Assembly: GCF_028994805.1 (NCBI RefSeq)
Contig: NZ_JAJQQP010000002.1
Location: 186,001-250,000, forward strand
Source of the DNA: Promicromonospora iranensis
GTDB taxonomy: Bacteria; Actinomycetota; Actinomycetes; Actinomycetales; Cellulomonadaceae
Reading direction: 5' to 3'
Length of the DNA stretch: 64,000 bases
Position numbers and translations under genes: made by a program. Of this stretch, positions 2,941 through 11,689 are shown piece by piece. Numbering within the stretch: the stretch's first letter is position 1; each line of letters starts with the position of its first letter. Under the pieces are notes generated by a model, which was not told the origin of the DNA, searched no databases, and was given only the letters and a program-made list of their open reading frames with translations.

Positions 2941-4032
2941 TCAGAAGGCCTGGGCCAGCAGGTCGGCGAACAGCGCGTCCGCGTCGACGTCCAGGCCGCG
3001 GGCCGTGAACCAGGCGCACACGGTGCGGCAGTCCCGCAGCAGCACCTCGCTCGCGAAGGGGTTGGACGCGAGGTCCACGACCTGCGGCAGGTCGATGATG
3101 ACCAGCCGCTCGCCGTCGGCCAGGATGTTGTACGGCGACAGGTCGCCGTGCGCGAAACCGAGCCGGGCCAGCACACCCATCCCGCCCGTCAGCTGCTCCC
3201 AGTACGACTCGAGCAGATCGTCCGACGGGCGCTCCCGGGTCAGCCGCGGCGCGGCGACGGCCTGGACGCGGCCCGCCTCGTCGGACACCTCGGTCCCGAT
3301 GAACTCCATGAGCACCTCGGTGCCGTCGATCTGTACCGGGTAGGGCACCGGAGCACCGGCCGACCAGAGATCGCGCAGGGCGACGAACTCGGCGTCGGCC
3401 CACTGGGTGGCCGAGACCGCACGGCCCCACGCGGACTTGCGGTCCTCCATGGCGCGCTGGTCACGTGTGCGGCGCGTCCGGCGCCCCTCGGTGTACTCGG
3501 TGCCGCGGTGGAACTGCCCGTGCTCGAGGCTGCGGTACCGCTTGGCCACGAGGAGACAGCGCTCGGCCTGGTCCGACGGCGCGTCGCCGGCGGGTAGGCC
3601 GCCGTCCGGTCCGCGGTCGGACGGCGTGACCCCGCCCGGCGGTACCGCACGTTCCAGCAGGAAGGCGTCCGCCTCCTTGCCCGTCTTGAGGATGCCGAGC
3701 TCGGTGTCGAGCGCGGCGTCCCGGGTGACCACCCACCCGGGCACGGGATCGGGCCCGCGCTGACCCTTGGCGACGGAACGCCAGGTGGACCAGCGCTGCC
3801 CCGGCCCGGGCTCGCTCGGGTCGGCCTGCCTCGGGTCGGCGTGAGCGGCACCGGAGTCGACGGCGTCCACCCCGAGCGCGCTCGGGTGCGGACCCTCCAG
3901 GTCCTCACGGCCGACCCGGGCGCGTCGGTTCGCGGCCAGCTCGTCAGGGGTCGGCCGGGCGCTGTACTGCTTGGTGGTCCTCTTCGCGGCCTGGACCAGG
4001 AGGGACTTCGGTGTTTCGGGAAAATGGGGCAA
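2941..4032 (-). CDS. RIO-type (RIO1-like) atypical serine kinase
   Basis: 363-residue protein with a RIO kinase domain in its C-terminal two thirds. The catalytic loop is 'HGDLSPYNIL' (His295, Asp297, Asn302) and the metal-binding motif 'IIDLPQ' (Asp314), the RIO replacement for DFG. 'GILKTGKEADAFLLE' is the ATP-binding loop and 'VAKRY' supplies the ATP lysine. An Arg/Lys-rich stretch around 'TEGRRTRRTRDQRAMEDRK' is where RIO1 proteins have their flexible loop. Bacterial RIO kinases have no settled target; eukaryotic and archaeal ones act in ribosome maturation. The start is a TTG at 4032, chosen because AAGGAG lies 7 bases upstream. A 23-codon reading frame with its own strong ribosome-binding site lies just upstream. 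Confidence 0.88.
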   Translation of the reverse strand: MPHFPETPKSLLVQAAKRTTKQYSARPTPDELAANRRARVGREDLEGPHPSALGVDAVDSGAAHADPRQADPSEPGPGQRWSTWRSVAKGQRGPDPVPGWVVTRDAALDTELGILKTGKEADAFLLERAVPPGGVTPSDRGPDGGLPAGDAPSDQAERCLLVAKRYRSLEHGQFHRGTEYTEGRRTRRTRDQRAMEDRKSAWGRAVSATQWADAEFVALRDLWSAGAPVPYPVQIDGTEVLMEFIGTEVSDEAGRVQAVAAPRLTRERPSDDLLESYWEQLTGGMGVLARLGFAHGDLSPYNILADGERLVIIDLPQVVDLASNPFASEVLLRDCRTVCAWFTARGLDVDADALFADLLAQAF

Positions 4033-4065
4033 GACGGTGCTCCTTGATGCTGGAGCACGACCGGG

Positions 4066-4137
4066 TCAGTTCCGGGTGCTCCTGGTGACAGTGGCGTCTG
4101 CTGCCACGGAGGCAGCTGCGCGAACGACGTCGTCCAT
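4066..4137 (-). CDS. Possible 23-residue leader peptide or small protein
   Basis: Short frame starting MDDVVRAAASVAADATVTR, 23 residues, with one of the best ribosome-binding sites in the window (GGAAGGAGGCAGTC then ATG). It ends 33 bases before the TTG start of the RIO kinase gene on the same strand, which fits an upstream leader or a co-transcribed small protein. No family is recognised and the composition is simple, so coding status rests on the ribosome-binding site and position only. Confidence 0.35.
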   Translation of the reverse strand: MDDVVRAAASVAADATVTRSTRN

Positions 4138-4156
4138 GACTGCCTCCTTCCTGTCC

Positions 4157-4171
4157 GCACTCCCGGAGTGC
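4157..4171. promoter_or_regulatory. Perfect 15-base palindrome upstream of the leader frame
   Basis: GCACTCC-C-GGAGTGC is a perfect inverted repeat about 20 bases upstream of the small frame that precedes the RIO kinase. It could be an operator or a small RNA stem. The 4172-4312 stretch between it and the kinase-membrane gene end shows no other recognisable gene. Confidence 0.3.
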
Positions 4172-4312
4172 CTGGCCCCGACCGCATCGGCCGGGGATCC
4201 TGCTACCTGCGTTGGCCGGTCATCAAGCGCCTCGAAGAGCAGGCTCGGTGACCGTGCGACGAGCATGGCACGACCGCGTCGCGGACCGCACCTGTTTTTC
4301 CTGGGGCTGCGG

Positions 4313-6607
4313 TCAGTTCCAGGGCAGAGCGTTCTCGATCGACTCCCAGACCGAGTCGCGCACGTCCTCGGTGGTGTCCTGGACGCCCTGCTCGAGGTCG
4401 TCCTGGATCTGCTCCCGCTGCTGCTCGAACGAGTCGCGCGCGTCCTGCGTCACCTGCTGGGCGTAGCCGACCGCACCCTGCACGGCGATCACGATCACCC
4501 ACACCACGACGACGAGCCAGAACGGCCACGTACGCCCACCGCGGCGCCTCCGCACCGCCCGGAAGAGGCCCACGAAGGCAGAGGTCACGATGCCGAGCAG
4601 CGGGATCGACAGCTCGGCCATGCGGGGCAGCCAGACCGGGTCGAGGCTGAGCGTGGACACCGCGAGGCCGCCGAGCGCCGCGAACAGCGGCAGGCCGGCC
4701 GCACTGGGCATGGCGTCGAAACCCGGGACGAGGCGCACCAGCTGGTAGAGCGCGAGAGCGAGCAGCACGCGCGGGACCCAGCCGATGATGGTCGCCAGGA
4801 CGCCCAGGCCACCTCCGGAGCCGCGCCGGTCCGCATCCCGGCCGGTGTCGTTCGGGCCGGCACCGTCGTCGCGTCGCGCGGTCGGCCCTGGGGCCCCGGC
4901 CGGCTGAGCCGGGGGCTGGACGGGCGACTGCGGCGGGGTGCCCGGCTGCGTGCCCGTGGAAGACATCGGGCGCTGCGCCGGGGCGGGTGTCGGTGTGGGC
5001 ACCGGTGCGGTGCGTGCGCCGGGCGCCGGACCCGGGCGGAACGCGGGCGCCACCTGCGTGGCCTGCTGGTTCGTCAGGGGTGCCATGCGCTGGGCCGGGT
5101 GGCTCGACTGCCTGCGGGGCGGGGGCGTCGCCGTCGGGCTGCCAGGGAGCGGCAGGCCGTGGCGCCGGCGGTAGGCGATCCAGCCGTCGAACGTGTCCTG
5201 GTACCCCTCGGGCGTGAAGGCGGGGGCCCAGCGCATCGCCGCCCACAGGTAGTCCTTGATCTCGGCGGGCGCCCGCCCACCGGCTCTCTGCGGCCCGACG
5301 GCGGCCAGGTACGTGGAGATGACCTCCTCGGCGGCGCCGTCGAACCCGTCGCCGTGCACCTGGTGCAGGCGGCCCATGAGCTGCTGGTCGTAGACCAGGT
5401 TGGTGATGGGCTCGCCCTGCCGTACCGGGTTGCTCACGAGCACGCTGGCCGCCGTGACGGTGGCCGCGGCGGCCCCGCTGCCGGTGAGGACCTCGGTGAC
5501 GAGGCCGCGCTCGATGGTCGTGACGCCCGCGGCGGCGAGCAGCGCCGGGTCCAGCGCCGCGCTGTCGTTCGCGAGCTGGGCCACGGTGCGGGACAGGTTG
5601 TGCAGCGGTGGGCGGTCCTCGGGCCGGTGCCGGGTCATTGCGAGGACGAGCGGGAGCAGCCGGGGGTCCACCGGTCCGATGTCGGCCGCCGTCAGGTCGC
5701 GCCCTGCGAAGTTGAGGTCGTTGGGCAGCACGCCGGTGGCGAGGAAGATCAGCAGCAGGCCCAGGCTGTACACGTCGGAGCGGGCGTGCGGCTTGCGCAC
5801 GAACAGCTCGGGCGCCATGTACGAGATGGTGCCGGCGGCGTGCGTCGAGGTGGTGGTGCCGTGCCCCTTGGCGATGCCGAGGTCGATGAGCACGTACCGG
5901 TCGGGCGCGGCGATGATGTTCGCCGGCTTCACGTCCCGGTGCAGGAAGTGCTCCTCCTGGAGCACCGCGAGGGCGTCGAGCACGTCGTCCGCCACGCGCA
6001 GCACGTCCCGCAGCGGCAGCGGCCCGTCCGCGGCCACTCGCTGGGACAGGGTGGGGCCCGGCACGAGCTCCATGGCGAACCACGGTGTCGGCGACTGCAG
6101 GTCGGCCGTGACGAGCCGCGGGAACCCGCGCCCACCCAGCCGCTCCAGCAGCGCGGCCTCGCCGACGAACCGGTCCAGCGAGCCGGACTCGGAGTTGGTG
6201 AGCACCTTGAGTGCTACCTCGCCGCCGGGCCCCGTGGCCCGGTAGACGTGCGCGAACCCGCCGTGGCCGAGCGAGCCGACCAGCTGGTACGGGCCGAGCA
6301 CCTCGCCGGTGGCCGGGATGCGCTGGGCGGTTCCCTGTCCCGTGCGGGGACCGGGATCGCCCTGCCGGACCGAGGGCGCTCCGACGGCGCGCGACCCCGC
6401 CGTGTGCGACCCGACCGGGTGGCCGGCACCGGAGGGCTGCACGGCCTGCGTCGGCGCCGTCGGCGGTGGGGCCATCGCGGTCGGCCCGGCCGGCGTCACC
6501 ACCCGCGTGGGCGACGGCGGCGGAGGGACGGCGGCGGCCTGTCCGCCACCCCGGGCCGGTGGGCCGGCGGGGGGTAGGGCCGTCGTGCGGGTGGTCTCGT
6601 CGGACAA
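4313..6607 (-). CDS. Membrane-anchored Ser/Thr protein kinase with paralogous C-terminal membrane module
   Basis: 764 residues. Order: Pro/Ala-rich N-terminus (about 10-100); protein kinase domain about 105-345 with glycine loop 'GSLGHGGFAHVY', ATP lysine in 'VALKVL' (Lys134), catalytic loop 'HRDVKPANI' (223-231), metal motif 'DLG' in place of DFG (242-244) and 'MAPEL' (264-268); an unassigned region with 'DYLWAAMRWAPAFTPEGYQ'; a Pro/Ala-rich linker; and a C-terminal membrane module about 602-764 with three hydrophobic segments and an acidic coiled-coil-like tail. That last module is repeated in the next gene (6709-7809). The start is TTG at 6607, 7 bases after GAGGAG. The kinase looks catalytically intact. 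Tail topology and target are unknown. It likely shares a transcript with the upstream membrane-protein gene. Confidence 0.9.
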   Translation of the reverse strand: MSDETTRTTALPPAGPPARGGGQAAAVPPPPSPTRVVTPAGPTAMAPPPTAPTQAVQPSGAGHPVGSHTAGSRAVGAPSVRQGDPGPRTGQGTAQRIPATGEVLGPYQLVGSLGHGGFAHVYRATGPGGEVALKVLTNSESGSLDRFVGEAALLERLGGRGFPRLVTADLQSPTPWFAMELVPGPTLSQRVAADGPLPLRDVLRVADDVLDALAVLQEEHFLHRDVKPANIIAAPDRYVLIDLGIAKGHGTTTSTHAAGTISYMAPELFVRKPHARSDVYSLGLLLIFLATGVLPNDLNFAGRDLTAADIGPVDPRLLPLVLAMTRHRPEDRPPLHNLSRTVAQLANDSAALDPALLAAAGVTTIERGLVTEVLTGSGAAAATVTAASVLVSNPVRQGEPITNLVYDQQLMGRLHQVHGDGFDGAAEEVISTYLAAVGPQRAGGRAPAEIKDYLWAAMRWAPAFTPEGYQDTFDGWIAYRRRHGLPLPGSPTATPPPRRQSSHPAQRMAPLTNQQATQVAPAFRPGPAPGARTAPVPTPTPAPAQRPMSSTGTQPGTPPQSPVQPPAQPAGAPGPTARRDDGAGPNDTGRDADRRGSGGGLGVLATIIGWVPRVLLALALYQLVRLVPGFDAMPSAAGLPLFAALGGLAVSTLSLDPVWLPRMAELSIPLLGIVTSAFVGLFRAVRRRRGGRTWPFWLVVVVWVIVIAVQGAVGYAQQVTQDARDSFEQQREQIQDDLEQGVQDTTEDVRDSVWESIENALPWN

Positions 6608-6708
6608 GCAAGGACTCCTCAGGAGGGCACCGGAACTTCCGGCTGGACCAGAGGAAATCTATCAGCGACCCGCCGCGCCGGTCCGCAAGGAGCCCGAGCT
6701 GTGACCTG

Positions 6709-7809
6709 TCAGCCGTTCCCGCCGGGCAGGGCGTCCTCGAGCTGCTCGGTCGCGTTCTGCCTGGCATCTTCCATGCCCTGCTCGACCTCCTGCTCGACCG
6801 ACTCCCGGGCGTCCTGCTTCGCGTCCTCGACGCTCTCGTCCACCGAGTTCTGGACGTCCTGCTGGATGTTCTCGGTGGCGTCCTGGGCATAGCCGACGAT
6901 GCCGCCGACGGCGAACACCACGATCCAGGCGATGATCACGAGCCCGTAGGGCCAGACCGCGAGCGACGTGTTCAGCGAACGGATCGTGTTGAGGAGCCCG
7001 GCGAGCGCTATGCCGAGCGCCGGGATCGTCAGGTTGGCGGCCTGGTCGGACCACTCGGGATTGAGGTTGAGCATGCCGAGCACACCGTCGCCGATGCCGC
7101 GGAACAGCGGGAACTGCGAGACGTCGGGCATGACGTCGAAGCCCGGGATCAGCCGGACGAGCTGGTAGACGCTCAACGCGAGCAGGATCCGGGGGATCCA
7201 CGCCAGGACCGCGCCCGCCGCAGAGCCGCCACCGGGGGAGTCGGCGTCCCGCTCCCGGCGCGGTGCCGGCGGCGTCGGCTGGGGTGCCTGAGGGCTGTAG
7301 CCCTGGTCATAGGGCGGCTGGCTACCCGGCAGCTGACCCGGCTGGTGCTGGCCCGGCTGCCCGTAGCCCGGCTGCTGGCCGTGGGCCTGCGTCGGCTGGC
7401 CGTAGGCGGCCTGCCCCTGTCCGTAGCCCGGCTCGCCCGGAAACGCGCCCGGCGGTTGCGCCTGCGTGGGCTGCCCGGTCTCGTACGGGCGGTACGGCCG
7501 GGCCGGGGGCGGGGTGGTGGCCCGGAAGTCGCGGCCCGGGTCGCCGCCCTGCTGGGGCATTCCCGACGGCGGCAGCACCTGCGTCTGGTCGCCGTACCCC
7601 GCGTTCCCCTGGGGCGTGCCGACCGGGGGCATCATCTGCGTCCGGTCGCCGTAGCCCGCGCCACCCTGGACCGCGTCCATCCGCTGCGTGGAGGCATACG
7701 ATGACTGCGCGCCCGGCTGCGTACCCGGGCGATCCGGGCGAGCGGGCGGCCGCTGGATCTGCGTAGGGTCGTCCGCCGGAGGGATTCGGCGGGTGGGCTC
7801 GTCGGACAC
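6709..7809 (-). CDS. Gln/Pro/Gly-rich membrane protein, paralogous to the kinase C-terminus
   Basis: 366 residues. Residues 1-195 are a low-complexity cytoplasmic-type segment rich in Pro, Gln, Gly, Tyr and Thr (for example 'GYGQPGQHQPGQLPG'). Residues about 199-366 are a membrane module: hydrophobic segments at 'IPRILLALSVYQLVRLIPGF', around 'IPALGIALAGLLNTI' and at 'GLVIIAWIVVFAVGG', then a charged helical tail with repeated 'ESVEDAKQDARESVEQEVEQ' patterning. The module matches the C-terminus of the adjacent kinase nearly motif for motif (YQLVRLxPGFDxMP, then a PLF motif, IPxLGI, VGYAQ). The start is GTG at 7809 after GAGGAG at 7 bases, and the N-termini of both proteins begin V/MSDE-T-R. 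Function is unknown. The long unsplit frame reaching 8547 is antisense to the ATPase gene and not used. Confidence 0.8.
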   Translation of the reverse strand: MSDEPTRRIPPADDPTQIQRPPARPDRPGTQPGAQSSYASTQRMDAVQGGAGYGDRTQMMPPVGTPQGNAGYGDQTQVLPPSGMPQQGGDPGRDFRATTPPPARPYRPYETGQPTQAQPPGAFPGEPGYGQGQAAYGQPTQAHGQQPGYGQPGQHQPGQLPGSQPPYDQGYSPQAPQPTPPAPRRERDADSPGGGSAAGAVLAWIPRILLALSVYQLVRLIPGFDVMPDVSQFPLFRGIGDGVLGMLNLNPEWSDQAANLTIPALGIALAGLLNTIRSLNTSLAVWPYGLVIIAWIVVFAVGGIVGYAQDATENIQQDVQNSVDESVEDAKQDARESVEQEVEQGMEDARQNATEQLEDALPGGNG

Positions 7810-7975
7810 GCGGAGGCTCCTCGGTTGTGGTCCCGGTTTCGACAGCTGTTTGCGCGAGAACCTACCAGGTGGGGTGATTGCCCCGTTGGGCTGGCCAGGC
7901 GGGCGAACATGTCCGACCCTTGCTTCGGGGGCGAACCACGCGATGCCGCCTACCCAGGAACTTCGGAGGAAACGC

Positions 7976-9892
7976 ATGAGCTCTGACACCGTGCCCCGCT
8001 GGCCTCGGATCGACGCGATCGTCCGGGAAGACGGTTCCGGCGAGGTGACGATCGACGGGACGTTCCATCCCATCACCACGGGCAGCCTGGAAGAGGCGCG
8101 GGTGGAGGTGCTGCGCCGGGTGACGGAGAACGCCGCGAAGGTCGGTCGGCCCGTGCGCGCGTCCGCGACCGGACCGGAAGGACTGTGGAACCTGATCGTG
8201 CACCCGGACGGGACCGTGGTCCCGGAGGAGGACGAACTCGTGCCGCCGTCGACCCCGACGCCGCAGGTGCCGGACCCGGTGCCCGGCACCGCGTCGGCCC
8301 CGACGCATGGTGGGATGCCCGGAGGCACGCCTGAGGTGGACCCCGGCCCGACGGCGGCACCGGGACCGGTGTTCGAAGGCACGCCGGTCGTGGACCTGCC
8401 TCCCCGGGGCGAGCAGGACGACCTGCTCGGCGCAGCGGACCCGCTCGACACGACGCACGCGGCCGGTACGACCGGAGCGTCCGGCAGCACCGGTGGTACG
8501 GGCTCCGACCCGCTCGCCTCCGGGGTCGAGATCGACCCGGAGGACACGGTGCGGCGCGTGCCGAGAACGCCCGTGGCGCCGGATGCCGGGGGACCGGGCT
8601 TCGCAACACCGGACTCCGCAACACCGGACTCCGCGCCTCGCGACTCCGCGACCGCCGGTCCGGCGACGCCCGGATTCGCGCCGCCCGGATCCGCGACACT
8701 CGGGTATGTCTCCTCCGGAGCCGCGTCCGCCTATCCGGCGAACGGCGCGCCGCCCGAGGCGGACGGCGGTTCCCCGGTCGCCGACTGGGTACGCGAGCAC
8801 GCGTCGGACGACACCCGGATCAGACCTGCGGGAGGCCAGCCGGGCGGCCTGGCGACCCCGGTGTCCGGACCGGTCGACGCGGTGCCGACCGCGGGATACA
8901 CCAGCGGTGGGCTGTCGGCGCCGCCGTCGGACCCGACGCCCGTGACGGACGGCGACGCGCCGCGCTCCCGGCGCGAGGCGCGTCAGTCGTTCCTGACGCA
9001 CCAGCAGGACGAGGACCCGGCCACGCGTGGGTTCCGCGGGATGCTCACCAAGGTCGGCATCCGGGTGGGACCGAGCGAGTCGGAACGGGCCGAGCGCGCC
9101 GACGAGCGCGCCGTCAGCCAGCACTGGCCCGGTCCGCGCACCATCTCGATAGTGAACGGCAAGGGCGGTGCGGGGAAGACGCCGTCCACGGTGCTGCTCG
9201 CGGCGGTCTTCGCGCAGTTCGGCGGTGCGGGCGTCGTGACGTGGGACAACAACCAGACGCGCGGCACGCTGGGCTGGCGTACCGAGCAGGGGCCGCACGA
9301 GGCCACGCTGCTGGACCTGCTGCCGCAGGCGGACCGCCTCCTCGGCCCGTCGGCGCAGGCCGCCGACCTGGCACGGTACGTGCACCACCAGACCCGCGAC
9401 CGGTTCGACGTGCTGCGGTCCAAGCCGATCGCCATGGCGAACGAGCAGCGGATCGAGCCGCGGGACGTGGACGCCATCCACTCCGTGCTGTCGAAGTACT
9501 ACCGGATGATCCTGATCGACTCCGGCAACGACGAGTCCGATCCCATGTGGCAGCGGATGATCGACCTGACCGATCAGCTCGTGGTGGCCACCACGACGCG
9601 CGACGACCACGCGGAGGCCGGCGCGCTGCTCCTGGAGGCGCTCTCGACCCGGGACGGCCGGTCGGCCTACCTGGCGCAGCAGGCGGTCGTGGTGGTGAGC
9701 CAGGCCGACCAGAAGGAGCCCGCGAGCGAGCTGGAGAAGGTCGCCGACGGGTACCGGTCGCTGGCCCGGGAGGTGGTCACCATCCCGTTCGACCCGGCGA
9801 TGGTCGACGGTCACCTGCGGTACGGCGCGCTGCGCACGGACACCCGGAGGGCCTGGCTCAAGGCGGGGGCCGCGGTGGCCGGCGGTCTGTGA
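7976..9892 (+). CDS. MinD/ParA-like ATPase with novel N-terminal domain and long linker
   Basis: 638 residues. Residues 1-85 form a small folded domain ('WPRIDAIVREDGSGEVTIDG', 'WNLIVHPDGTVVPEEDE'); 86-370 are a Pro/Ala/Gly/Thr-rich linker with short repeats; the rest is a deviant-Walker ATPase. The P-loop is KGGAGKT with the signature lysine Lys396 and Lys401; 'ILIDSGNDESDP' supplies Walker B. There is no clear C-terminal amphipathic MinD membrane helix. Such ATPases place or partition cargo, or serve secretion systems; proteins of this layout occur near actinobacterial type VII loci, but no WXG100 or EccC gene is in this window. ATG 7976 follows GGAGGA at 5 bases. It is divergent from the Gln-rich membrane protein gene across 166 bases, which suggests common control. 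Confidence 0.85.
   Translation: MSSDTVPRWPRIDAIVREDGSGEVTIDGTFHPITTGSLEEARVEVLRRVTENAAKVGRPVRASATGPEGLWNLIVHPDGTVVPEEDELVPPSTPTPQVPDPVPGTASAPTHGGMPGGTPEVDPGPTAAPGPVFEGTPVVDLPPRGEQDDLLGAADPLDTTHAAGTTGASGSTGGTGSDPLASGVEIDPEDTVRRVPRTPVAPDAGGPGFATPDSATPDSAPRDSATAGPATPGFAPPGSATLGYVSSGAASAYPANGAPPEADGGSPVADWVREHASDDTRIRPAGGQPGGLATPVSGPVDAVPTAGYTSGGLSAPPSDPTPVTDGDAPRSRREARQSFLTHQQDEDPATRGFRGMLTKVGIRVGPSESERAERADERAVSQHWPGPRTISIVNGKGGAGKTPSTVLLAAVFAQFGGAGVVTWDNNQTRGTLGWRTEQGPHEATLLDLLPQADRLLGPSAQAADLARYVHHQTRDRFDVLRSKPIAMANEQRIEPRDVDAIHSVLSKYYRMILIDSGNDESDPMWQRMIDLTDQLVVATTTRDDHAEAGALLLEALSTRDGRSAYLAQQAVVVVSQADQKEPASELEKVADGYRSLAREVVTIPFDPAMVDGHLRYGALRTDTRRAWLKAGAAVAGGL
8603..8702 (+). repeat. Short tandem repeats in the ATPase linker
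   Basis: A perfect 15-base direct repeat (GCAACACCGGACTCC at 8603-8617 and 8618-8632) is followed by degenerate copies encoding an ATPDS-ATPDS-APRDS-ATAGP-ATPGF-APPGS-AT pentad series. It lies inside the disordered linker of the MinD-like protein. Confidence 0.7.
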
Positions 9893-9976
9893 CGCGTCGC
9901 CGTCGCGGTTCCCGTGCGAGTGGACGCCGCTCGTCGCATGCTGGGCGTTCCGATCGACGTCGACAGGGAGTTGCAC

Positions 9977-10867
9977 ATGTCGGACCAGACCACGCCACAG
10001 GACCCCGCCACCCAGGAGCCGCGACCGGAGCAGCCTGCCGACGACCTGCAGCCGCCGGGTCGCACGGGCGACATGTCGCAGGAGCCGGACCACGGAGAAT
10101 CCACCTATGAGGGGGCCGGCCGGCTGGACGGCAAGCGGGCGCTGATCACGGGCGGCGACTCCGGCATCGGGCGTGCCGTCGCGATCGCCTTCGCACGGGA
10201 GGGCGCCGACGTCGCGATCTCCTACCTGCCGGAGGAGGAACCGGACGCGCGGACGACGGCGCGCTGGGTCGAGGATGCGGGCCGCAAGGCGGTGCTGCTG
10301 CCCGGCGACATCCGGGACGAGGAGTTCTGCGGCCGGCTCGTCGCCGACGCGGTAGGCGGCCTCGGGGGGCTGGACATCCTCGTGAACAACGCCGCCTACC
10401 AGATGGCCCAGGACGACGGGCTGCGCGACATCACGACGGACCAGCTCGACCGGGTGCTGAAGACCAACGTCTACGCGCTGTTCTGGATCACCAAGGCGGC
10501 GCTGGACCACCTGCCGGAGGGCGGGTCGATCATCAACACGACGTCGATCCAGGCGTTCGAGCCCAGTCCTCAGCTGCTCGACTACGCCACGACGAAGGCG
10601 GCGATCCTCAACTTCACGAAGGGGCTGGCGCAGCAGCTGGCGCCCGAGGGCATCCGCGTGAACGCGGTGGCGCCGGGACCCATCTGGACACCCCTGATCC
10701 CCGCGACGATGCCGGACGGCAAGGTGGAGCAGTTCGGCGGCGACACGCCGTTGGGTCGCGCCGGCCAGCCCGCCGAGCTGGCCCCGGCGTACGTCTTCTT
10801 CGCCTCCCAGGAGTCGAGCTACATCACCGGCGACCGCATCGGGGTGACGGGCGGCCGGCTGCTGTAG
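9977..10867 (+). CDS. SDR-family oxidoreductase (YghA-like)
   Basis: 296-residue short-chain dehydrogenase of the longer N-terminally extended type. Residues 1-45 are a charged, flexible leader; the Rossmann motif is 'TGGDSGIG' (58-65), 'NNAA' is 137-140, and the catalytic set is Ser190 ('INTTSIQ'), Tyr203 and Lys207 ('YATTK'). The closing 'SSYITGDRIGVTGGRLL' is the usual SDR C-terminus. These enzymes reduce sugars, aldehydes or other carbonyls with NAD(P)H; the substrate cannot be fixed from sequence. ATG 9977 follows AGGGAG at 6 bases and is preferred to an upstream in-frame start at 9914. Its stop codon abuts the stop of the convergent DUF457 gene with no spacer. Confidence 0.88.
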   Translation: MSDQTTPQDPATQEPRPEQPADDLQPPGRTGDMSQEPDHGESTYEGAGRLDGKRALITGGDSGIGRAVAIAFAREGADVAISYLPEEEPDARTTARWVEDAGRKAVLLPGDIRDEEFCGRLVADAVGGLGGLDILVNNAAYQMAQDDGLRDITTDQLDRVLKTNVYALFWITKAALDHLPEGGSIINTTSIQAFEPSPQLLDYATTKAAILNFTKGLAQQLAPEGIRVNAVAPGPIWTPLIPATMPDGKVEQFGGDTPLGRAGQPAELAPAYVFFASQESSYITGDRIGVTGGRLL

Positions 10868-11689
10868 CTAGCCGGGGAAGAGTGCCACGACCTGGTACCA
10901 GACCGCCATGGTGTCGTAGCCCATCTGGTTCAGCAGCGCCCACACGATGCCGACGATCGCGTAGAGCGAGATCGGGACGAGCAGGATCCACTCGCGCACG
11001 GACCCGGCGTCGCCGATGATCGGGACCGAGAGGTTGCCACCGGTCCGCCACATCCAGTCGAGCTCGATGCCGCGCTTGTTGCGCATCCAGTAGGGGGACC
11101 GGAACTTCAGCGGCCACAGCAGCGGCACCCCGGCGGTCGTGATCAGGTCGCCGAGGACGTGCACGATGCAGCCGAGCGCCACGCTGAACGGCATCCAGTA
11201 CCACTCCTCGGGCGCGAAGATCGCGATGAGGACCGCCAGCGTGACGGACATGGTCCACGGGAAGATCTTCGTGTCCCGGGTGATCTTGAGCGCCTTGAGG
11301 GCGAACGCGACGAGCAGCACGCACATGATGCCCGGGCCGATCAGGATCGCGCCGAACTCCTCGGTGCCGGTGTCGATGCTCAGGAAGCTGAGCGCCCAGG
11401 CGATGGCCGTGAACACCGCGATGCCGAGGATCGAGTGCGTGCCCTTGCGGTGCCCGCCCGAGATCGCCTCGATGCCCTTCACCACCACGTTCGAGACCGG
11501 CTTCAGCGAGTTCGCGATGGTGCCCGAGTGGTGGTCGGCGTCGGGCAGCAGCGCCGCGCCCGCACAGACCAGGGCCCCGGTGAACACGCTCGCGTCCGAC
11601 ACCGGGTACCAGCCGAAGGCGATCGGCGTCGATGCCGTGACTGCGACCCAGGCCGCGGCTCCCGACGCGGCGTGGTGGCCTCCCATCAT
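10868..11689 (-). CDS. YdjM/DUF457-like membrane-bound metal-dependent hydrolase
   Basis: 273-residue polytopic protein. The N-terminal 'MMGGHHAASGAAAWVA' and 'LLPDADHHSGTI' plus 'GGHRKGTHSILG' supply the His/Asp set of the DUF457 (YdjM) family, predicted membrane metal-dependent hydrolases. At least six hydrophobic segments follow. Near the C-terminus 'GCIVHVLGDLITTAGVPLLW' is another conserved His/Asp motif. Start is one of two adjacent ATGs at 11689 and 11686; longer frames upstream lack family similarity. The substrate is unknown. Confidence 0.78.
   Translation of the reverse strand: MMGGHHAASGAAAWVAVTASTPIAFGWYPVSDASVFTGALVCAGAALLPDADHHSGTIANSLKPVSNVVVKGIEAISGGHRKGTHSILGIAVFTAIAWALSFLSIDTGTEEFGAILIGPGIMCVLLVAFALKALKITRDTKIFPWTMSVTLAVLIAIFAPEEWYWMPFSVALGCIVHVLGDLITTAGVPLLWPLKFRSPYWMRNKRGIELDWMWRTGGNLSVPIIGDAGSVREWILLVPISLYAIVGIVWALLNQMGYDTMAVWYQVVALFPG

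Follow-up and report, generated by a model that had tools for sequence, protein, structure and literature searches.

The window analyzed here is a stretch of 64,000 nucleotides forming part of contig 12 of the 5.84 Mb genome of Promicromonospora iranensis. It contains a cassette of three adjacent genes which encode a transmembrane Ser/Thr kinase, a second membrane protein (hereafter the twin) and a MinD/ParA-like ATPase. The twin gene lies upstream of the kinase gene on the same strand, with a gap of 101 bases between them, the ATPase gene is divergent from both, and purine-rich, plausible ribosome sites precede all three. An earlier description made from the letters alone (the sequence-only reading) had placed the three genes at the positions given in Table 1, which were confirmed; of the divergent promoter which it proposed, the divergent arrangement across 166 bp was retained, while no sigma-70-like site was found in a promoter search of positions 4000-10000 of the window. 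What can be read from the sequence is the gene anatomy, the membrane module common to kinase and twin, the intact kinase motifs, the repeats in the twin, the conservation of the genes together, the lack of the cassette at the corresponding site of relatives and the position of the ATPase among plasmid rows. Our leading explanation, to which we give slightly less than an even chance, is that a sensor kinase and a dedicated multi-site membrane substrate control a domesticated conjugation ATPase.

Table 1. Features of the kinase-twin-ATPase cassette and its flanks, in window coordinates.
Feature	Position	Strand	Remarks
RIO-type kinase gene	2941..4032	-	Pfam RIO1 1.1e-27; downstream flank of the cassette; borders the empty site of relatives
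Transmembrane Ser/Thr kinase, 764 aa	4313..6607	-	start TTG 6607
Kinase C-terminal membrane module	4316..4846	-	about 3 transmembrane helices, outer loop, acidic helical tail (predicted)
Undescribed kinase middle domain, ~90 residues	5159..5431	-	in Myceligenerans on twin or second kinase
Kinase domain, residues 107-297	5717..6289	-	Pfam Pkinase 1.9e-27; catalytic motifs intact
Twin membrane protein, 366 aa	6709..7809	-	start GTG 7809
Twin C-terminal membrane module	6712..7257	-	from alignment with the kinase module
Twin head	7258..7809	-	three [DE]xT[QR]x(hydrophobic)PP sites
Divergent intergenic region, twin/ATPase, 166 bp	7810..7975		sigma-70-like site not found
MinD/ParA-like ATPase, 638 aa, conjugative-plasmid family	7976..9892	+	start ATG 7976
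ATPase N-terminal domain (NTD)	7976..8257	+	predicted beta-beta-beta-alpha-beta-beta-beta; also on NTD-FHA, transmembrane-beta-propeller (predicted) and short proteins
ATPase domain	9071..9889	+	KGGAGKT P-loop; Pfam AAA_31 just under the cut-off
YdjM-family gene	10868..11689	-	Pfam YdjM 2.6e-25; other border of the empty site of relatives

As measured by the ratio of nonsynonymous to synonymous change (dN/dS), the kinase, twin and ATPase genes look constrained. Against the closest relative the ratios were 0.146, 0.172 and 0.171, respectively, with 0.053 for the kinase domain alone, and against a more distant relative the NTD and the ATPase domain of the ATPase gave 0.035 and 0.051, with 0.50 for the linker between them. 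The kinase domain and the ATPase superfamily are known, and the membrane module, the middle domain of the kinase and the NTD found no Pfam or NCBIfam match at curated cut-offs.

Kinase and twin end in a common membrane module, as the sequence-only reading had proposed. BLASTP alignment of kinase residues 590-762 with twin residues 187-362 gave 73 of 181 positions identical (40%, E 7e-41), with the previously named motifs present, and since 15 columns were invariant among 30 aligned module copies the similarity goes beyond chance. A hydropathy script run on six family proteins found three membrane stretches per module region in five of them and four in the window kinase; it also flagged a hydrophobic stretch within the kinase domain, which we read as the domain core. 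Lysine or arginine occupies 6 of the 15 positions between the last two membrane stretches of the window kinase (4/14, 6/20 and 5/14 in three relatives), and these basic residues would place the kinase inside the cell and the PGFDxMP...PLF loop and acidic tail outside. The acidic helical tails described earlier are present, with the correction that they are probably extracytoplasmic. The module tree has a branch (support 93/88) that separates all 14 twin copies from all 18 kinase copies, a split which points to a single duplication, probably older than the separation of Promicromonospora and Myceligenerans; both copies are retained in Promicromonospora. A tetraspanin identity for the module was considered and rejected (15 and 17 bits against a cut-off of 32.1).

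Among 149 genomes drawn from the order, only that of P. iranensis itself carried the module. Of 99 relatives, this genome included, 19 matched at E<=0.01 and 17 matched strongly (E<=1e-36), the latter all belonging to three genera of soil actinobacteria, Promicromonospora, Myceligenerans and Antribacter; two weak partial matches (G035 and G021, E 0.001-0.006) stand outside the 17. A scan of the genome contigs recovered 15 loci (11 Promicromonospora, 3 Myceligenerans, 1 Antribacter), and 72,556 plasmid records yielded no match at 1e-3. The sequence-only reading had allowed that the module might be a generic anchor found on unrelated proteins; judged by this distribution, it is not. The same reading had looked to conservation of the three genes together, and in 15 of the 17 strong-module genomes a module gene adjoins the ATPase gene on one contig, divergent each time. 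The assembly is broken at this point in the other two: in G157, which is fragmented, the twin lies beside only the N-terminal part of the ATPase, and in G155 the module genes and the ATPase gene are split between contigs. Two further Myceligenerans loci (L110, L116) showed the same arrangement, and the cassette was present in all 13 Promicromonospora genomes sampled.

The RIO-type kinase gene which flanks the cassette was sought in 10 module-free relatives of the family and found in seven. In all seven, RIO and ydjM lie close together with the kinase and ATPase genes absent between them, as direct neighbors in five and with one or two small called open reading frames between them in two. Gene calls in the fetched stretches came from our own codon-usage script, with which some genes were missed or misplaced. 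In the window and in the nearest relative one dehydrogenase-like gene (identified by eye) separates the ATPase gene from YdjM, and in two Antribacter-genus genomes three genes do so. The simplest reading is that the ATPase and kinase genes reached this site once, in the common ancestor of the three genera.

The kinase is of the Hanks type, with a Pfam Pkinase score of 96.8 bits (cut-off 31.7) and the motifs GHGGFAHV, VALK, HRDVKPAN and DLG. Its best NCBIfam match was PknB_PASTA_kin (4.5e-33), at 115.1 bits far below the cut-off of 450, and a Pfam scan of the protein gave no PASTA match, so it is not classed as a PASTA kinase. The layout given in the sequence-only reading, a kinase followed by the module, holds for both of those parts and missed a second undescribed domain following the kinase domain. 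This middle domain was without a match in a Pfam scan, and its profile against PDB sequences reached only chance level (best E 0.15). It was found in 18 of the 99 relatives, a fourth genus included; among 296 genomes of the phylum it was found in the own genome and in one weak match (4.4e-4, with an uninformative neighborhood), and it had no match at 0.01 in the plasmid collection. In Promicromonospora and Antribacter the domain is carried by the kinase. The module kinase of Myceligenerans lacks it; two genomes of that genus (L066/L112, L110) have it in the twin instead, and in L065, L110 and L116 an adjacent second kinase carries it. Movement of the domain between kinase and twin suggests that the two work together. 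Such a swap, like the old module duplication with both copies retained, would fit a single complex, the putative hetero-oligomer of the sequence-only reading. The P. iranensis genome itself encodes a second kinase with the middle domain (L143 5730-8195), on contig 12 about 16 kb from the cassette kinase and 52% identical to it over 414 residues. The membrane end of this second kinase is shortened and lacks the acidic tail, and a gene a few kb away looks like that of an error-prone DNA polymerase.

Could the kinase instead be part of an anti-phage defence system? PADLOC models for the PD-T4-6 and MADS kinases do match it (best 6.4e-40), but the best 25 of the 33 matches all fall within residues 89-352, that is, the kinase domain and its edge, where any such kinase would match. 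Neither the twin nor the ATPase had a PADLOC match, and for these three proteins, the ones scanned, we rejected a defence role as highly improbable.

The head of the twin had been described as low-complexity and Gln/Pro/Gly-rich. It holds an ordered motif, [DE]xT[QR]x(hydrophobic)PP, represented in the window by DEPTRRIPP, DRTQMMPP and DQTQVLPP; a typical repeat is VDESTQVMPP. Nine Promicromonospora twin heads (of 12 twins; one, L085, was called short, and L093 and L095 were missed by the gene caller) contained 23 copies of [DE]x(0-2)T[QRK]x[ILVMF]PP in 1,741 residues, a number reached by none of 2,000 shuffled sets. Two such sites, one of them in the cassette kinase of G155, occurred in the 268,286 residues of 927 further proteins encoded at these loci (re-fetched loci L102-L116 excluded). 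Threonine sites that disappear from M. tuberculosis when PknA is depleted are enriched in acidic residues at position -1 and at -3 to -6, and in Leu or Val at +3 (PMC7164672), and PstP-sensitive sites of M. smegmatis lie near acidic residues and protein termini (PMC6554272); PMC4389566 gave no useful motif passage. The candidate sites of the twin head are partly like the PknA-dependent ones, which would lend independent support to a phospho-target. The sequence-only reading had offered either the head or the ATPase as the target of the kinase, and of these the head, with its repeated sites, is a plausible phospho-target.

The ATPase carries the P-loop NGKGGAGKT, of the deviant Walker A type. 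It scored just under the AAA_31 cut-off (25.8 bits against 27), and two plasmid relatives exceeded it at 29.0 and 29.1. MinD and partition ParA proper did not fit (minD_bact 11.2 against 212.9 bits, ParA_partition 18.8 against 180), so that a role in positioning is suggested only by analogy with the ParA/MinD superfamily; a PDB sequence search returned no match at 0.1. The sequence-only reading had regarded the NTD as new, and a Pfam scan indeed gave no match. The NTD was modelled with a pLDDT of 79.8 as beta-beta-beta-alpha-beta-beta-beta. A fold search in the PDB gave no match at E<=0.001 (best 0.038, TM-score 0.41), leaving the fold unnamed, and the NTD profile against PDB sequences gave a best E of 0.22, which is chance level.

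The NTD is not restricted to the ATPase. It was found on 109 plasmid records at E<=1e-3, and it heads FHA proteins directly adjoining the plasmid ATPase at L123, L124 and L126 (FHA above the Pfam cut-off), which ties the ATPase family to the reading of phospho-threonine. Short proteins near the ATPase also carry it (L117, L118, L130), as do proteins with a membrane stretch (judged by eye) and a propeller-like end, strongly in L078 and L097 and more weakly in L075, L077 and L120 (E 0.0002-0.003); the propeller assignment comes from a sub-threshold PQQ_2 match to L078. The two strong examples, L078:7691-9655 and L097:7576-9540, are from Promicromonospora, and their called neighbors include no relatives of type IV secretion system (T4SS) clusters.

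Relatives of the ATPase were detected in 41 of the 99 genomes (E<=1e-15). Plasmid records with such relatives numbered 164, of which 65 were typed as conjugative, 40 as mobilizable and 59 as non-mobilizable, most commonly from Arthrobacter and Paenarthrobacter. The plasmid proteins were up to about 75% identical to the window ATPase over the ATPase domain. Sixteen plasmid regions, picked from the best 30 rows, were opened: in 12 the flank held genes named as SCO6880, TraM-recognition/VirD4-like or VirB4-like, in two DUF6668 with a peptidase or transglycosylase, and in two the neighbors were unnamed. One locus of a relative (L070) showed a Pfam TraG/TraD coupling domain, an M23 peptidase, DUF6668 and a sub-threshold VirB2-like pilin. 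Two kinds of T4SS accompany the ATPase, the SCO6880 type and the CD1110 type (L119, which is pTZC1 of Cutibacterium acnes, and L126 and L129), and its presence with the latter suggests that it travels between secretion types. In a tree of 60 ATPase-domain rows (58 different; re-fetched copies and rows of fewer than 165 residues omitted, among these the broken second ATPase of Myceligenerans indicum; the longest branch, L101, is unreliable), the module-linked ATPases formed one clade (95/80), joined by a second chromosomal paralogue (99/96), and the two together lay within a 48-row set (100/98) that holds 16 T4SS rows and 4 other chromosomal rows. By homology of its NTD, linker and ATPase domain and by its place in the tree, the window protein belongs with the conjugative-plasmid AAA ATPases of the Micrococcales, and the simplest reading is that it descends from a conjugation-associated family.

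Further members of the family were seen on chromosomes. The second paralogue, which is older, is separated from the cassette by several kb in 7 of the 13 Promicromonospora genomes sampled and in Myceligenerans (for instance L063:17283-19004, L065:7712-9043, L110:3918-5423), and is in pieces in M. indicum (L066:7506-8256). Distant ATPase relatives in other members of the bacterial family (L080, L081, L098, L099) adjoin an ECF-type sigma factor and a conserved protein of about 500 residues without a Pfam match (Pfam run on L080 only).

With relatives of this kind, the chromosomal ATPase might act on conjugation itself, in trans or as a decoy, when the cell receives conjugative elements of its own family. 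The high identity to plasmid ATPases would agree with this, as would the presence in the same genome of a T4SS-like element (L136 and L137, contig 8) with a TraG-type coupling protein, in whose fetched 36 kb no cassette-type ATPase was seen, and the finding of a single ATPase of the family in the genome at E<=1e-15. That element is distant, however, with relatives of SCO6880-type-cluster proteins at 27-34% identity to the ATPase-linked kind. No T4SS gene cluster surrounds the window ATPase among the 61 called window genes: a comparison with 47 T4SS-cluster proteins recovered just two of them, the ATPase itself and one gene with a weak, peptidase-like match of 82 residues. The presence of the cassette in every Promicromonospora sampled may also count against it, and we consider a conjugation role quite improbable.

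A stronger alternative, though still a rather unlikely one in our judgement, is that the kinase and twin form a signalling pair and the ATPase is a mere neighbor, both having arrived at one place on the chromosome and staying adjacent by common descent while doing separate work. The sequence-only reading had counted the ATPase as part of the module; it is adjacent, but it is not confined to the module, its family being largely conjugation-associated and living without the module in many genomes (the ATPase was found in 41 of 99, the module in 17) and on the 164 plasmids. The absence of motif sites from the window ATPase would also agree with separate work, as would the existence of the family's second kinase alone elsewhere, in the own genome and in G198, where no ATPase match was found. 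Against it, the divergent adjacency persists in 15 of 17 genomes and three genera while other neighbors vary, and the module-linked ATPases form a single clade.

We return to the reading in which all three genes act as one signalling unit on the chromosome of Promicromonospora, Myceligenerans and Antribacter. Within Promicromonospora, matching membrane modules would associate the kinase with the twin, the conserved outer loop and acidic outer tails being likely sensing or pairing surfaces. The active kinase would then phosphorylate the threonine of the acidic-Thr-Gln-x-hydrophobic-Pro-Pro repeats in the cytoplasmic head of the twin, turning it into a multi-site phospho-platform, and this platform, or a phospho-threonine reader bound to it, would recruit or regulate the divergently encoded ATPase at the membrane. 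The ATPase itself would have been captured from a conjugative element, where its relatives sit in type IV secretion loci. We infer that kinase and twin pair at the membrane, that the head is phosphorylated, that the ATPase is contacted and that some process is controlled; work related to the cell envelope or the pole is a guess by analogy. The kinase-twin half of the scheme draws on several sequence facts; for the ATPase link the grounds are the joint conservation of the genes and the FHA proteins encoded beside some of the plasmid relatives.

Several observations weigh against this scheme. The twin is missing from both Antribacter-genus genomes and from Myceligenerans L065 and L116, so the kinase and ATPase can do without it. 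The strict head motif is absent from eight Myceligenerans and Antribacter kinases and twins (a looser site occurs in three of the eight), which makes its amplification a Promicromonospora trait; it was defined after the heads had been read, so that the rarity figures given above are descriptive and do not amount to a test. The PknA logo (PMC7164672) has Pro at -1 and +2 and a basic residue at +4, where the heads have Pro. The window ATPase contains no motif site even in the looser form, so that the twin is the better candidate substrate. Relatives of one NTD-FHA protein were found on only nine plasmid records, compared with 164 for the ATPase, and the FHA link, although real, is thus not general; no FHA gene was seen in the cassette, whose neighbors were partly scanned. 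Of the positions between the last two membrane stretches of the window twin only 1 of 15 is basic, which leaves the topology argument weak for that protein, and the AlphaFold2 (AF2) model of the module was poor (mean pLDDT 48.7) and served for helix order only. Finally, the ATPase tree was midpoint-rooted and does not settle the exact sister of the module-linked ATPases.

Known systems offer partial parallels. As with the PknB-type membrane kinases of actinobacteria, the cassette kinase combines an active-looking kinase domain with a membrane anchor, and its candidate sites partly resemble PknA-dependent sites (PMC7164672), but the membrane module, acidic tail and middle domain take the place of PASTA. 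With the AAA ATPases of Micrococcales conjugative plasmids (pRE117-1, pYJND-1 and others, and pTZC1 of Cutibacterium) the window ATPase has in common the NTD, a variable linker, a conserved pre-ATPase segment and the P-loop; it differs in being paired with a kinase and twin, in forming a separate clade and in lacking a T4SS cluster. VirC1 of Agrobacterium is a ParA-like ATPase inside a T4SS. Another ParA-like protein, the ParA of the gonococcal island, acts inside a T4SS (PMC8716806). These tie a ParA/MinD-type ATPase to DNA transfer and offer a model for a membrane role, but the likeness is at superfamily level and neither a ParB nor a relaxase partner was seen at the cassette. In the PknB-CwlM-FhaA signalling of mycobacteria (PMC6180346), threonines phosphorylated by a membrane kinase are read by an FHA protein, and the phosphorylated form shifts between membrane and cytoplasm. 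This system, an analogy only, is an actinobacterial case in which phospho-threonine switches membrane association; the cassette differs in that its putative substrate is itself anchored in the membrane, by the kinase's own module. In the open-access literature searched we found nothing on Micrococcales conjugative plasmids with a T4SS, this ATPase and FHA, and nothing joining SCO6880 with conjugation. Among papers on Promicromonospora kinases or conjugative plasmids, judged by title and the start of the abstract, none concerned the cassette, and a search combining FHA, T4SS, kinase and actinobacterial plasmids gave none on topic among the matches listed.

In its most specific form, which we hold to be unlikely as it stands, the scheme would have a captured conjugation ATPase placed under a transmembrane kinase with its own phospho-antenna. 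This antenna would be the twin, with its amplified threonine sites; paired to the kinase by a duplicated sensor module, it would draw the ATPase, or the reader of the ATPase, to selected places on the membrane. If true, the cassette would represent a new type in bacterial signalling, with the NTD as a new adaptor domain between type IV secretion and phospho-threonine signals. The cassette offers a small, testable case of a chromosome reusing plasmid-transfer machinery, in which the gene beside a kinase encodes the likely substrate, with its repeated candidate sites in view. It also draws attention to an undescribed, putative adaptor domain which, on conjugative plasmids of Gram-positive bacteria, is common to ATPases, FHA proteins and predicted membrane propellers, and so makes possible ties between phospho-threonine signalling and plasmid transfer open to test.

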